Shown here piece by piece: positions 31,974 through 63,351 of a stretch of DNA of 64,000 bases (within the stretch, counting starts at the first letter, position 1; every line of letters begins with the position of its first letter). The translations under genes and the position numbers were made by a program. The stretch is taken from contig CP066225.1 in NCBI GenBank assembly GCA_016350165.1, positions 5,084,001-5,148,000 on the forward strand, written 5' to 3'. The notes below the pieces were generated by a model that had not been told where the DNA came from, searched no databases, and worked only from the letters and a program-made list of their open reading frames with translations. Source of the stretch: Planctomycetota bacterium (GTDB taxonomy: Bacteria > Planctomycetota > Phycisphaerae > Phycisphaerales > Phycisphaeraceae).

Positions 31974-31994
31974 ATGCGTATAAATGCAAACTCG

Positions 31995-32013
31995 GCTAAA
32001 ATATCAGACACCC
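31995..32013 (+). promoter_or_regulatory. -10-like box GGCTAAAAT before rlmN
   Basis: TAAAAT at 31997-32002, preceded by GGC, ends 11 nt before ATG 32014. No Shine-Dalgarno sequence is visible. The earlier in-frame ATG at 31984 would lie upstream of this box. Confidence 0.35.
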
Positions 32014-33117
32014 ATGAGTAACACACAACACTTTTTCGACCTCGACGACCTGCAGCTTACTCAAGCTGTTACCTCCCTCGGCATGCCCAAATTCCGAGCA
32101 AAGCAACTTCTGGATTGGGTCTATAGCAAAGGCGTTATCGATCCCGATAAAATGACCAATTTATCCGCTAAAGACCGCGATCTCATCAAATCCAACTTCA
32201 CATTTCTTCTCGGCAAAGCGATCCATCACCAACTCGCTACCGATGGCACACAAAAACTTCTAATTGATTGGGCACTCGACCACGCTACCCAAAGCAGCTC
32301 ACTCGATGTCCTCAACAACCAAGGCGGCCCTGAATCTCAAACTGAATGTGTCATGATCCCCGCGACCTCCGAAACAGGCTCAAACCGCAAAACAGCTTGC
32401 ATCTCTTCACAAGTCGGTTGCCCCGTTGGTTGTAAATTCTGCGCTTCAGGCATTGGCGGCCTCGACGCCAACCTCACCGCCGGCCAAATCGTTCAGCAAA
32501 TTTGGCAACTCGCTCAACTACCCAACGTGGGCCGTATTACTAATGTCGTCTTCATGGGCATGGGTGAGCCTCTTTCCAACTACAACGCTGTCACGCAAGC
32601 CCTAAAGCTCATCAACGCTTCATGGGGCCTCGCTATCGGTGCTCGCAAGATCACCGTTAGCACCGTCGGGCTCCCCGCTCAAATCAAACGTCTTGCCACC
32701 ATCGAACTCCCCATCACCCTCGCTATCTCTCTTCATGCACCCAACGATCAAATTCGCCAGCAACTCATTCCATGGGCGGAATACGTCACAATCGAACAAC
32801 TTAAAGAAGCGGCAAACTTCTACTTCGATCAGACAGGCCGCGAAGTCACGCTCGAATACATCCTCCTAGGCCAACTCAATGATCAACCTGAACACGCCCG
32901 AGAACTCGCGCAAATAGCACGCTCACTCCGCTGCAATATCAACCTCATTCGCTACAACGAAGTCCAAGGCATGCCCTACAATCGCCCCCAAAGTAGCGAT
33001 GTTCTCGCCTTCCAAACCATCCTTCAAAACGCAGGCATTAACACACACATCCGCGCCAGTCGAGGTCGCGACATCGCCGCCGCCTGCGGCCAACTCCGCC
33101 ACGAACATTCGAAATAA
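32014..33117 (+). CDS. rlmN: Dual-specificity 23S rRNA/tRNA adenine-C2 methyltransferase
   Basis: 367 residues. Methylates A2503 of 23S rRNA and A37 of several tRNAs by radical SAM chemistry. The cluster motif is GCPVGCKFCASG (CxxxCxxC). The GMGEPLSNYN and SLHAPND segments and the catalytic C-terminal Cys in IAAACGQL are typical. ATG 32014 gives the usual N-terminus (DLDDLQLTQAVTSLGMPKFRAKQ); ATG 31984 would add 10 residues upstream of the probable promoter. Confidence 0.96.
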   Translation: MSNTQHFFDLDDLQLTQAVTSLGMPKFRAKQLLDWVYSKGVIDPDKMTNLSAKDRDLIKSNFTFLLGKAIHHQLATDGTQKLLIDWALDHATQSSSLDVLNNQGGPESQTECVMIPATSETGSNRKTACISSQVGCPVGCKFCASGIGGLDANLTAGQIVQQIWQLAQLPNVGRITNVVFMGMGEPLSNYNAVTQALKLINASWGLAIGARKITVSTVGLPAQIKRLATIELPITLAISLHAPNDQIRQQLIPWAEYVTIEQLKEAANFYFDQTGREVTLEYILLGQLNDQPEHARELAQIARSLRCNINLIRYNEVQGMPYNRPQSSDVLAFQTILQNAGINTHIRASRGRDIAAACGQLRHEHSK

Positions 33118-33176
33118 ACCCTGTTTTCGTTTTTAGATTCACCCGCCCGTAACCAGAACAACCACTGGTTTGTTGT

Positions 33177-33218
33177 TGCGCACCCATTACACCAACTCAT
33201 ACATCCGGAGGGTGCGCA
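33177..33218. repeat. Inverted repeat TGCGCACCC / GGGTGCGCA
   Basis: Perfect 9-bp arms (33177-33185 and 33210-33218) with a 24-nt spacer, between the rlmN stop and tRNA-Arg. The right arm follows the T8 tract of the tRNA-Arg trailer on the minus strand. It belongs to the GTGCGCA motif family of this window. Confidence 0.55.
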
Positions 33219-33228
33219 TAAAAAAAAG

Positions 33229-33302
33229 CGTACCCGGCAGGATTCGAACCTGCGACCTGCTGATTAGAAGTCAGCTGCTCTATCCAACTGAGCTACGGGT
33301 AC
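33229..33302 (-). tRNA. tRNA-Arg (anticodon TCT)
   Basis: 74 nt, read on the minus strand. Acceptor GTACCCG / CGGGTAC, D-arm TAGCTCAGTTGGATAGAGCA, anticodon stem GCTGA with loop CTTCTAA, T-arm GCAGGTTCGAATCCTGC, discriminator G. CCA is not encoded. It reads AGA codons. The 3' end runs into C and T8, which may act as the transcription stop. Confidence 0.96.
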
Positions 33303-33388
33303 ACGCAAGCACAATCATAACGATCAGCCTACATTCTTCAACCTATCTCTTTATTAACACCGCTGTTACTTCAATCGCGAAAACTGAT

Positions 33389-33652
33389 CTAAATTGAATC
33401 AAACTTGAAAATCTTCGCTGCTATCTCCACGCCCGCGTTCTCTAATGCCGTAAAGATAATTTTTCTAAAACAACTTGGGCAAAGTTTAACATCATACAGC
33501 TTGAATTCCTGGCCTTCATTCAAGTCAATTTCATAGCTCAACGACGTGATTTCGTAATCGCCCTTCTCACCCCAATTGATACCGCCATCAAGATAATATT
33601 GCCCGCCACCTCGACCGCAGTTCTCACAAACAATTTCCCTCAATCCACGCAT
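33389..33652 (-). CDS. Small CxxC-CxxC protein, paralog A
   Basis: 87 residues. An N-terminal Cys pair CENC at 9-12 and a second pair CPSC at 58-61 suggest one zinc-ribbon-like site. Between them lie the conserved DGGINWG and GDYEITSL segments. The start at 33652 is set by AAAGGAG 5 nt upstream; an open extension to 33691 is not supported. It is 50/87 identical (my count) to the next gene upstream (33940-34203). Function unknown; the family is not one I recognise. Confidence 0.78.
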   Translation of the reverse strand: MRGLREIVCENCGRGGGQYYLDGGINWGEKGDYEITSLSYEIDLNEGQEFKLYDVKLCPSCFRKIIFTALENAGVEIAAKIFKFDSI

Positions 33653-33826
33653 ACCGACTCCTTTGCGCCGCAAGAAATGAAACAAAACCAACCTTCGGAT
33701 TTGCTCAGTGACTGATCGTTTATTTTATATTGTTTTGGTACTAATGCACGTCGCTTTCCCGGATTTGCAGGGATCTTTTCTTGGCCAGAAGCAAAATAAA
33801 GATATCGTTTGATAGGCGTATAAAAT

Positions 33827-33855
33827 AAAGCCCAGTAATTAAACTGAGCTTTTTT
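33827..33855 (-). terminator. Terminator between the two CxxC paralogs
   Basis: Hairpin AAAGCCCAGT / ACTGAGCTTT with an AATTAA loop. The 26 nt are repeated exactly at 34370-34395. On the minus strand it would end transcription of paralog B; on the plus strand it is followed by T6. Confidence 0.6.
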
Positions 33856-33939
33856 AGCTATGGGTACGTACATGTTCAGCCATGACGATCACCCTACATT
33901 CATCAACCTATCATATTGTGAGCAATACAGTTACCACTC
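33856..33939 (-). repeat. Duplicated trailer with apparent tRNA-Arg relic
   Basis: The trailer of paralog B contains CTACATTCATCAACCTATC where that of paralog A has CTACATTCTTCAACCTATC. Both are followed (toward lower coordinates) by a GGGTAC block: in A this is the 5' end of tRNA-Arg (33297-33302); in B it stands as AGCTATGGGTACGTAC with no tRNA body. This looks like the remains of a duplicated tRNA-Arg end. Observation direct, interpretation inferred. Confidence 0.5.
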
Positions 33940-34203
33940 TTAATTAGCGTCAAATCTAAATATTTTTATAGCAGTTGGTATACCTGCCTTTTTTAATGCT
34001 GGAAGAATAATTTTTCTAAAACAATTTGGACAAAGATTTGCTTCAAAAAACATGAATTCTTTATGTTCTTTCAAATCCACCTCAAAGTTCAGTGATGTGA
34101 TCTCGTAATCACCTTCTTGGCCCCAATTAATACCACCATCAACATATAAATTGCCCCCACTGCGACCGCACTTTGTGCAACTGATTCCTTTTACACCCTG
34201 CAT
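33940..34203 (-). CDS. Small CxxC-CxxC protein, paralog B
   Basis: 87 residues, same length as paralog A. CTKC at 9-12 and CPNC at 58-61; DGGINWG and GDYEITSL are identical in both. The start at 34203 has AGGAGG 4 nt upstream. The leader GCGGCG-(4 nt)-GGAG-x-CGGTATG is shared with paralog A, so the duplication includes the translation start. It lies between tRNA-Asp with its terminator and paralog A. Function unknown. Confidence 0.78.
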   Translation of the reverse strand: MQGVKGISCTKCGRSGGNLYVDGGINWGQEGDYEITSLNFEVDLKEHKEFMFFEANLCPNCFRKIILPALKKAGIPTAIKIFRFDAN

Positions 34204-34365
34204 ACCGCCTCCTAAACGCCGCAATCTCAACCTTTTTGGCCATGAAATACCACTCAATGGTCGATGTGTTTTTGTAGTTAGATAGCTTCAAACCCAAAAT
34301 TTAGTTTTTTTGGGGGTCTTAAGTAGTAATCGAAAAAAATGACAAAACATAGACATTGCGCGCAT

Positions 34366-34395
34366 AAAAAAAGCCCAGTAATTAAACTGAGCTTT
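34366..34395 (-). terminator. Terminator after tRNA-Asp, followed by ATGCGCGCAA
   Basis: Minus-strand hairpin AAAGCTCAGT / ACTGGGCTTT, AATT-type loop, T7, then directly ATGCGCGCA (34357-34365). The hairpin sequence is an exact copy of the one at 33827-33852. Confidence 0.85.
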
Positions 34396-34403
34396 AAAGT
34401 AAG

Positions 34404-34477
34404 CGAGAGCGACGGGGATCGAACCCGCAACCTCTGGATCGACAGTCCAGTGCTCTAACCAATTGAGCTACGCTCCC
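34404..34477 (-). tRNA. tRNA-Asp (anticodon GTC)
   Basis: 74 nt, minus strand. Acceptor GGGAGCG / CGCTCTC (one G-U pair), D-arm TAGCTCAATTGGTTAGAGCA, anticodon stem CTGGA with loop CTGTCGA, T-arm GCGGGTTCGATCCCCGT, discriminator G, CCA not encoded. Confidence 0.95.
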
Positions 34478-34821
34478 TTACTTGTCAGTGGTTGAGAAAT
34501 GTTTTTCTCAACCGGACGGGCACAATTTAACGGGTTATTCCCTCATGTCAACTCGGCCACCAACTTGTGAATAAATTCTGTGACTTATCCACATTAGTAG
34601 CAGATGTTTAGCGCTCATATCCATAGCAAAATCAATATCAAACAATCACATGCATCACCTGACATTTCAGGCAGCAAACTTACCGTGATTTCATCATAAT
34701 TTTGCCAAACTCATGCCTCGCAATGAAAAAACAATCCTGTTTTCATGCCTGAAATAATTGCTCGCCGATTGTAGGCCACCCATTATTTTTTTTCTCATTT
34801 CTCATGACCCACAAAATATAT
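34478..34821. other. Gene-free region upstream of tRNA-Asp with hairpin and two DnaA-box sequences
   Basis: No ORF supported. It holds a perfect 10-bp hairpin GGTTGAGAAA / TTTCTCAACC with a 4-nt loop (34490-34513), 12 nt before the tRNA 5' end. It also holds two consensus DnaA boxes in opposite orientation 10 nt apart: TTATTCACA on the minus strand (34566-34574) and TTATCCACA on the plus strand (34585-34593). The rest is AT-rich. Confidence 0.55.
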
Positions 34822-35979
34822 TTATTTGACCTGACTGAGAGGAATGTCACATCCTTCCTTCGCCGACCTCACTGCTGCCTCAAGCACACGCTGTACCTCA
34901 TAAGCATCCTCAAAGCTCGGCAACGGTACCAACGACTTCTTACCACCCATCTCATTCACCATATCCGCGAACTGATTCACAAACGTATGTTCGTACCCAA
35001 GGTTGTGACCCGCAGGCCACCAGTTTTCCGCATACGGATGCCCTGCCCCCGCCTCACTCACATTGATCGTCGACCAGCCTTGCTCCTTCGCTGGCAACTC
35101 CGCGTCATAGAAATCCAGCTCCGTCATTCGCTCCAGATTAAATCGAAGCGATCCCTTCTCACCATGCAACTCAATCTTATTGTGATTCTTATATCCCCTC
35201 GCCAGCCGCGATGCCTCAAAGCTTGCCACCATCCCACTCTTAAAGCTCGCCAGCAGCAAACTAATATCATCCACATCCGATTTGCCAGTCCCACCTCCCT
35301 CAAGCAGCATCCGTTCCTTATACACCGTATGCAGCACCGCGCCATTCACCTTCTTCACATCATCTCCAGTCAGGAACCTCGCCAGATCGACACTATGAGC
35401 AACCAGATCGCCCAGAGCCCCAGATCCTGCATGCTTTTTCTTAAACCGCCACAACAACGGCGTCTCAGGCCCGCCCCAGTCTTGTAAATACACGCACCTC
35501 ACTTGCAAGATCCGTCCAAGACGCCCTGAATTGATCATCTGGTACGCCAATGACACCGCAGGACATCGCCTATAGTTAAACCACACATAAGCCTTTTGCT
35601 TCTTGTGCTTCTTCGCCACCTTTATCATCTCTCTCGCGATCGGCAGTGTATTCGCTAAAGGCTTCTCGCAAACCACATGCTTCCCATTCTCAAACGCCTC
35701 AATCGCCTGATCCCGATGCATCTCATTTGGCGTCCCCACATCCACCAAATCAACCTCCGGATTCTTCACCAACTCACGCCACTTCGTCGTCCAGCTTTCC
35801 CATCCCCACTGCTTCGCAAACTTCTTCAATGACTCCTCATCCTGAGCCGCGACCTGCTTCATCTCCACACCCATCGGCAGGTCAAAAAACCGTGGCCCAT
35901 TCACATACGCATTCGAATGTGCCCTACCCATAAACTTCGAACCAATCATCCCAATCCTCAAAACCTTTTCAGCACCCAC
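34822..35979 (-). CDS. Gfo/Idh/MocA-family oxidoreductase
   Basis: 385 residues. N-terminal NAD(P)-binding Rossmann fold (IGMIGSKFMGRAHSNAY), the family's CEKPLA motif near residue 100, and a C-terminal alpha/beta domain with DLVAHSVDLARF. Members oxidise or reduce sugars, inositols and their derivatives; planctomycetes carry many copies for carbohydrate turnover. The start is GTG 35979, with AAAGGAG 6 nt upstream; a longer frame to 36045 lacks support. Single-gene unit with a long A-rich region upstream. Confidence 0.9.
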   Translation of the reverse strand: MGAEKVLRIGMIGSKFMGRAHSNAYVNGPRFFDLPMGVEMKQVAAQDEESLKKFAKQWGWESWTTKWRELVKNPEVDLVDVGTPNEMHRDQAIEAFENGKHVVCEKPLANTLPIAREMIKVAKKHKKQKAYVWFNYRRCPAVSLAYQMINSGRLGRILQVRCVYLQDWGGPETPLLWRFKKKHAGSGALGDLVAHSVDLARFLTGDDVKKVNGAVLHTVYKERMLLEGGGTGKSDVDDISLLLASFKSGMVASFEASRLARGYKNHNKIELHGEKGSLRFNLERMTELDFYDAELPAKEQGWSTINVSEAGAGHPYAENWWPAGHNLGYEHTFVNQFADMVNEMGGKKSLVPLPSFEDAYEVQRVLEAAVRSAKEGCDIPLSQVK

Positions 35980-36565
35980 ATCAGACTCCTTTAATTTCAA
36001 CTTCAACCAATCGTAACGCCACACATTCAATTCGATCACGAACACAAAACTGTATCAAACCGAACCTGTATTTATTCGCCGCATCAGCAAACGCCATGCC
36101 AATTCAACGATTTTTCAAAACGTGCGCACATTCACGCATTTTCAAAATGATCACTACTGATTTCCATGCAATTCCGCGCTGTTTCTTCATTAAACTGATT
36201 CATTTCTTCACGTTTCAAGTCATTTCTGCTCATTTCCATGTACGGGTAAATCATCAAAAAAAGCCAAATCAAACAAAACGCGCGCACAAAAACAAACAAA
36301 ACTCACAGTTTTCAAACCGTTTTTGTCCATTCCGGTACTGTTTCAATGCTTTTCAAACAAAAAACGCAAAATCGCTTTTCAAATTTCATTCAAAATCAAT
36401 CGTTTTCAACACAATCAAAAACACGCTTTTAAGAAATTTCGTGCGCGCATAACCAAAAACACATTCAAAACCACTCAACCGATGCAAAACAATGTAACAC
36501 GCGCGCATAAAAAAAGCAGCACAATTTTGCGCTGCTTCTTGATCTCAATTTTCATTCGTACCGAC
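35980..36565. repeat. A/C-rich gene-free island B with GTGCGCAC/GCGCGCAT motifs
   Basis: No coding frame looks real: the open frames are low-complexity and Lys/Phe/His-rich. Motif copies: GTGCGCAC 36122-36129, GCGCGCAC 36280-36287, GTGCGCGCAT 36441-36450, GCGCGCAT 36501-36508, mostly followed by A-runs. CACGCATTTT at 36135-36144 also occurs in the 58.3-kb island. The right end contains the fabZ terminator. Confidence 0.6.
36509..36537 (-). terminator. Terminator after fabZ, followed by ATGCGCGCG
   Basis: Minus strand: stem AAGCAGC / GCTGCTT (36514-36520 and 36531-36537), T7 (36509-36515), then directly ATGCGCGCG. Confidence 0.85.
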
Positions 36566-62808: not shown

Positions 62809-63351
62809 ATGAATCTGAAATCGATGGATAATATTAGTAAGTTTTTGAGTTTTGTGTTGAGGCATAAGCCGGAGACGATTGGGCTTGAGTTGGACGAACA
62901 TGGTTGGGTGGATGTTGATGAGTTAATTAAAAAAGCACAGAGTGAATGTGAACTGACGTTCGAGTTGCTTGAACGGGTTGTTGAGGAAAGTGATAAGAAG
63001 CGATTCGCGTTTTCAGCTGACATGCAGAATATTCGTGCGAATCAGGGGCATTCGGTGAAGGTGGATTTGCAATTGGAAGCGAAGAAGCCGCCACGTATGC
63101 TTTATCATGGGACGGCAACACGGTTTGTTGATTCTATTATGCAAGAAGGGTTGAAGGCGGGTTCACGTCATCATGTGCATTTGTCAGTTGATGTTGCGAC
63201 TGCGACAGCGGTTGGAAAGCGATATGGAAAGCCTTGCATTTTAGAGGTGGCGGCTGGTGAGATGTTTGAAAAAGAGTTTGAGTTTTTTGTTTCTGAGAAT
63301 GGGGTTTGGTTGACGGAGAAGGTGCCGGTGAAGTTTATACACGTCGAGTAA
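62809..63351 (+). CDS. kptA: RNA 2'-phosphotransferase (Tpt1/KptA family)
   Basis: 180 residues. It transfers an internal RNA 2'-phosphate to NAD+. Catalytic pattern: R18-H19 in LRHKPETIGLELDEHGWVDV, the Arg in IRANQGHSV, and the Arg region after MLYHGTATRF. In fungi it ends tRNA splicing; the bacterial role is not established. AGGA lies about 7 nt before the ATG. Its stop is 10 nt from the stop of the convergent sulfatase. Confidence 0.94.
   Translation: MNLKSMDNISKFLSFVLRHKPETIGLELDEHGWVDVDELIKKAQSECELTFELLERVVEESDKKRFAFSADMQNIRANQGHSVKVDLQLEAKKPPRMLYHGTATRFVDSIMQEGLKAGSRHHVHLSVDVATATAVGKRYGKPCILEVAAGEMFEKEFEFFVSENGVWLTEKVPVKFIHVE

Follow-up and report, generated by a model that had tools for sequence, protein, structure and literature searches.

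A likely tandem duplication ending inside tRNA-Arg and an orphan pair of cysteine-knuckle genes between two tRNA genes of a planctomycete

Two small neighbouring genes, here called A and B, lie between a tRNA-Asp and a tRNA-Arg gene, and the arrangement is, with fair though far from full confidence, best explained by one tandem duplication which ended inside tRNA-Arg and left an orphan pair of cysteine-knuckle genes. In their codon patterns A and B alike behave like protein genes that purifying selection maintains, not like young duplicates. The window, that is the whole stretch of 64,000 nt analysed, covers positions 5084001-5148000 of a genome of 5,234,020 bp (G000:C1). This genome appears to be that of Poriferisphaera heterotrophicis ZRK32, seemingly a deep-sea planctomycete (PMC10945688). 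The sister genome used for comparison (G001, 4,291,168 bp) appears to be P. corsica KS4 (PMC7783415). The two are called ZRK32 and KS4 below.

Features of the locus are collected in Table 1. Both flanking tRNA genes which had been claimed in the initial annotation are real. In the direction of transcription on the minus strand, tRNA-Asp is followed by a hairpin, gene B and one copy of a 79-nt repeat, and then by a second hairpin, gene A, the other copy of the 79-nt repeat and tRNA-Arg. Elsewhere in the window (62809-63351) a Tpt1/KptA-type RNA 2'-phosphotransferase is encoded (PF01885, 2.2e-52), a type of enzyme whose role in bacteria is unclear.

Table 1. Features of the ZRK32 locus (positions are those of the window)
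Feature	Position	Strand	Remarks
rlmN	31984-33117	+	beyond tRNA-Arg
tRNA-Arg (TCT)	33228-33302	-	intact, downstream of gene A; adjoins rlmN in KS4 too
Probable tRNA-Arg promoter, TTGAAG-16-TATGAT	33314-33341	-	within the trailer of copy A; same hexamers, spacing and place in KS4
Gene A, 87 aa, CxxC...CPxC	33389-33652	-	ORF, alignment to B, codon-position pattern
Second terminator-like hairpin copy	33827-33852	-	downstream of gene B; duplicate of 34370-34395
Relic: tRNA-Arg promoter copy with altered -10, and first ~12 nt of tRNA-Arg (33856-33867)	33856-33908	-	probable duplication junction
Gene B, 87 aa, CxxC...CPxC	33940-34203	-	ORF, alignment to A, codon-position pattern
tRNA-Asp terminator-like hairpin	34370-34395	-	KS4 counterpart present
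tRNA-Asp (GTC)	34403-34477	-	intact; serves as the prophage attachment site of KS4
Gfo/Idh/MocA oxidoreductase	34822-36045		beyond tRNA-Asp

The two halves of the interval repeat each other in the same order and at a spacing of 543-565 nt, over 242 nt (71% identity), over the 79-nt trailers (72%) and over 30 nt that include the hairpin (97%). When each alignment was compared with 200 single-base shuffles, z reached 22.2 for the genes, 8.3 for the trailers and 4.0 for the leaders, and the leader value dropped to 1.7 without the 30 nt adjoining the start codon. Duplicated leaders and trailers had both been described before; the trailers stand, whereas the leaders are duplicated only near the ribosome-binding site and in the terminator tail. 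The exact duplication of a 26-nt hairpin was also borne out (26/26 identical). Both hairpins resemble intrinsic terminators of the minus strand, with three such sites found in 33100-34700 against 1.4 expected by chance. The first sits 7 nt after tRNA-Asp and is regarded as the tRNA-Asp terminator because the gene-free KS4 locus carries a matching element in that position (E 0.05, with 80% identity over 43 nt; also recovered by terminator scan and alignment). The terminator tail CTTTTTTTATGCGC (window 34360-34373) is recurrent in this planctomycete family, exact matches numbering 14 in G000, 3 in G001, 8 in G031, 2 in G009 and 0 in G004, and the reversed control gave 0 matches in all five genomes.

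Within the 79-nt trailer of A a sigma-70-like site (Table 1) ends 11 nt before tRNA-Arg. Promoter-like sites in the ZRK32 region are not above chance (2 found, 3.6 expected). In KS4, where 1 was found and 0.2 expected by chance, identical hexamers at that spacing precede tRNA-Arg, and for this reason the trailers are read as mostly copies of the tRNA-Arg promoter region and not as gene tails. The GGGTAC block which had been likened to a tRNA-Arg start is real, the relic differing at 12 of 53 positions from its equivalent at 33291-33343; in copy B, 3 nt separate the second hairpin from a block made up of the promoter and the first ~12 nt of tRNA-Arg. Where the two copies of this stretch differ, KS4 agrees with A at 8 positions, with B at 0 and with neither at 4, so it is copy B that has decayed.

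The proposed history starts from a small cysteine-knuckle gene, probably zinc-binding and met so far in this genome alone, placed between the tRNA-Asp terminator and the tRNA-Arg promoter. The segment copied would have begun a little upstream of the terminator, taken in the gene and the promoter, and stopped about 12 nt into tRNA-Arg. Its product, read in transcription order, would be tRNA-Asp, terminator, gene B, a tRNA-Arg promoter that is now dead and is followed by 12 nt of the tRNA start, terminator, gene A, the live promoter and tRNA-Arg. Afterwards both proteins would have diverged under purifying selection and the spare promoter would have decayed; if both genes are transcribed, as seems likely, the second hairpin now probably terminates the gene B transcript. 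A single duplication of this kind requires a truncated tRNA-Arg upstream and an intact one downstream, and this matches the arrangement seen. The tRNA-Arg gene and the hairpin have a 9-nt match, AGCTCAGTT, in common which may have aided the duplication, although the seam is not the exact product of this match, which counts against the proposed history. A single clock is also contradicted: third positions changed at 50/87 and four-fold sites at 12/17, against 12/53 in the relic and 0/26 in the hairpin. To reconcile these rates, gene conversion or selection acting separately (for example on the terminator) is needed.

In the corresponding KS4 locus a short spacer separates rlmN (76% identical) and tRNA-Arg from the terminator, which is followed by a 3' part of tRNA-Asp. 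At a distance of 28,790 bp from this part the gene is found complete, and a 52-nt core is common to both. Between the repeated cores (L020 4685-4736 and L114 13475-13526) a 28.8-kb tailed-phage prophage occupies tRNA-Asp (G001:C1:2102684-2131474), and the Gfo/Idh/MocA gene beyond it is 66% identical over 399 residues to its ZRK32 counterpart. The prophage carries genes of a tyrosine integrase (PF00589, 5.3e-12), terminase, portal and tape measure, and 4 of the 5 proteins tried matched PHROGs. It can thus be said that tRNA-Asp is a phage site in this genus. No copy of genes A and B was detectable in KS4, though the terminator and the promoter are present; with two genomes compared, the pair may have been either gained by ZRK32 or lost by KS4.

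A mobile element using the tRNA-Asp attachment site could have left genes A and B behind or carried them as cargo, which would be compatible with the duplication history. The occupation of the very same tRNA-Asp by the KS4 prophage and the lack of both genes in KS4 favour this idea; nevertheless the genes sit outside the position of the KS4 element, past the host's own tRNA-Asp terminator, and no phage or viral homologue turned up in the phage and IMG/VR collections. Two tRNA-Asp 3' ends flanking an element were not found in ZRK32 either: a search of 32900-36000 for another tRNA-Asp 20-mer, allowing up to 4 mismatches, found none, and the one 14-mer match, at plus-strand position 33203 and with 2 mismatches, was taken as chance. 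No integrase gene was seen at the site in a scan which covered PF00589 recombinases, the genome's 12 matches all lying outside 5084001-5148000. On this balance a mobile origin is considered rather unlikely. By hand comparison 7 of these 12 matches are no more than 400 bp away from a tRNA match, and many tRNA genes of ZRK32 seem to be integration sites.

The initial annotation had supposed that the whole unit was duplicated with a complete tRNA-Arg, one copy of which later lost its body. The copying of the hairpin, gene, trailer and start of tRNA-Arg stands, but for the decayed tRNA a breakpoint about 12 nt into the gene is a simpler account, as no longer remnant was found. The promoter copy is better conserved (41/53) than the leaders beyond the ribosome-binding site, as if it had recently been useful, and this favours the older reading. 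However, it calls for a second event where one would do and leaves open which of the copies should be truncated, and nothing of the tRNA-Arg body past ~12 nt was found between the two tRNA genes. A search of 33303-34402 with Rfam (E up to 5) gave no tRNA match and no recognisable tRNA-Arg body, and among tRNA-Arg 14-mers only the 5' one matches between the tRNA genes (2 mismatches, 33867); another matches at 35858, outside this interval. Duplication of a full tRNA is held to be unlikely. Within gene B the same Rfam search returned REN-SRE at 28.2 bits (E 1.5e-4), under its cut-off of 41; this and three further sub-threshold matches were taken as chance. If the single duplication ending within tRNA-Arg is accepted, the locus illustrates how such an event beside a terminator can mimic a dead tRNA.

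The pair of 87-residue proteins described before was confirmed, 50 of 86 aligned residues being identical with zero gaps; the length of 87 assumes ATG starts, and in-frame TTG codons upstream would give 100 and 105 aa. Blocks common to both are CxxC, DGGINWG, GDYEITSL and LCPxCFRKII, and all four cysteines (C9/C12 and C58/C61, forming two CxxC knuckles) are conserved. Over 87 codons the differences fall 20/18/50 on first, second and third positions (p = 2e-5 against equal shares), which supports the earlier claim that both copies are maintained and shows them evolving as proteins. The dN between A and B is 0.26 and NG86 returned no finite dS, which is read as saturation. Among the 17 four-fold sites at which A and B share the first two codon bases, 12 are different. 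That the two ORFs are not genes and resemble each other as duplicated non-coding DNA would agree with the lack of significant library matches and of credible genome relatives, but is very hard to believe given the strong third-position excess, the conservation of every cysteine without an indel, and an RBS-like GGAG five bases 5' of both ATG codons. The third-position GC of gene A is 0.466 and that of neighbouring gene B is much lower, 0.261.

Many lineage-restricted small genes of this kind exist in bacteria, and A and B form an orphan pair, orphan meaning that nothing related was found in the collections searched. No significant match was obtained in Pfam, NCBIfam, PHROGs, PADLOC or PDB sequences (best E per library 0.035-0.44), so that a well-known family did not come to light, and no relative showed the two copies in unrelated places. 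Protein A had no match at E 0.01 among 100 relatives, nor did a profile among 399 other genomes of the order. Searches of 396 other genomes of the class gave 7 weak matches outside the window's own genome (E 0.02-0.08), and those of 391 other genomes of the phylum gave 5 (E 5e-5 to 3e-3, values being per genome and uncorrected for 392 genomes, and the samples of relatives, order, class and phylum overlapping); these five were judged unrelated. Two of the five (L022, L025) fall at a RecO-like ORF with CxxC...CxxC and were rejected as homologues. The other three, from three other planctomycete genomes, were rejected too; they are CxxCH-rich and look like multihaem cytochromes by eye, their CxxCH pairs matching by spacing. 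In L023 634-2274, L024 631-2367 and L026 568-2286 a CxxC-DxxxxW-LCxSC-like stretch scores 20-23 bits against the A1 profile, which was taken as a coincidence of spacing.

Further scans relied on near-exact short peptides or fixed cysteine spacing, used contigs of at least 3,000 bases, and could miss close species, remote relatives or genomes very near that of the window which the collections may leave out. With this reach, two scans of GTDB r220 contigs and three of IMG/VR confirmed no relative, and none was found in phage collections or, for protein A only, among plasmids. Peptide scans matched 27, 61 and 46 stretches, of which 0 were confirmed at E 1e-3. The fixed-spacing pattern (CxxC, DG, W, CxxC) was found in 9 viral and 78 genome stretches, of which 71/87 contained an internal stop and were dropped; the best of the 16 open ones aligned to the A1 profile along 22 residues and scored 10.3 bits, which is chance. 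The conserved small family near tRNA genes that had been suggested finds no support in the profile, contig, viral, phage and plasmid searches, none of which gave a credible relative. What is left are two orphan proteins that are under selection and whose locus is used by a phage in the sister species.

As to function, the N-terminal CxxCG and C-terminal LCPxCFRKII agree with a small domain of the zinc-knuckle or perhaps treble-clef kind. The proteins would be stand-alone, zinc-binding accessory proteins, and binding of nucleic acid or protein would, as a guess, be the likeliest activity of such a knuckle. Both AlphaFold2 models predict a helix at 59-72 and no clear hairpin between the knuckles, with mean pLDDT of 42.1 and 41.5, which is poor. 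A bolder proposal is that the pair founds a new zinc-binding family limited to a Poriferisphaera lineage, carried as cargo at a tRNA-Asp/tRNA-Arg phage hotspot, kept as two diverged copies and possibly phage- or tRNA-related; this is regarded as quite improbable.

Three known systems can be compared with the locus. Treble-clef and zinc-ribbon proteins have a typical fold layout, and like them A and B combine an N-terminal CxxC with a C-terminal LCPxCF followed by a helix predicted with low confidence. Unlike members of known families, protein A stays far below the cut-offs of the Pfam entries that are its weak leads, DUF4428 (14.3 against 27.8) and zf_Tbcl (12.9 against 24), the weak matches spanning short stretches only. 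The phage integration at the KS4 tRNA site involves the same tRNA-Asp and the same flanking genes; in contrast, tRNA-Asp of ZRK32 is intact, no phage-integrase match falls in the window and the ORFs are on the far side of the terminator. Truncated tRNA copies occur at duplication or integration junctions, and here too a 5' tRNA fragment with its promoter stands beside a repeat copy. Unlike at such junctions, the fragment comprises only ~12 nt of the tRNA and is joined to a copy of the neighbouring terminator.
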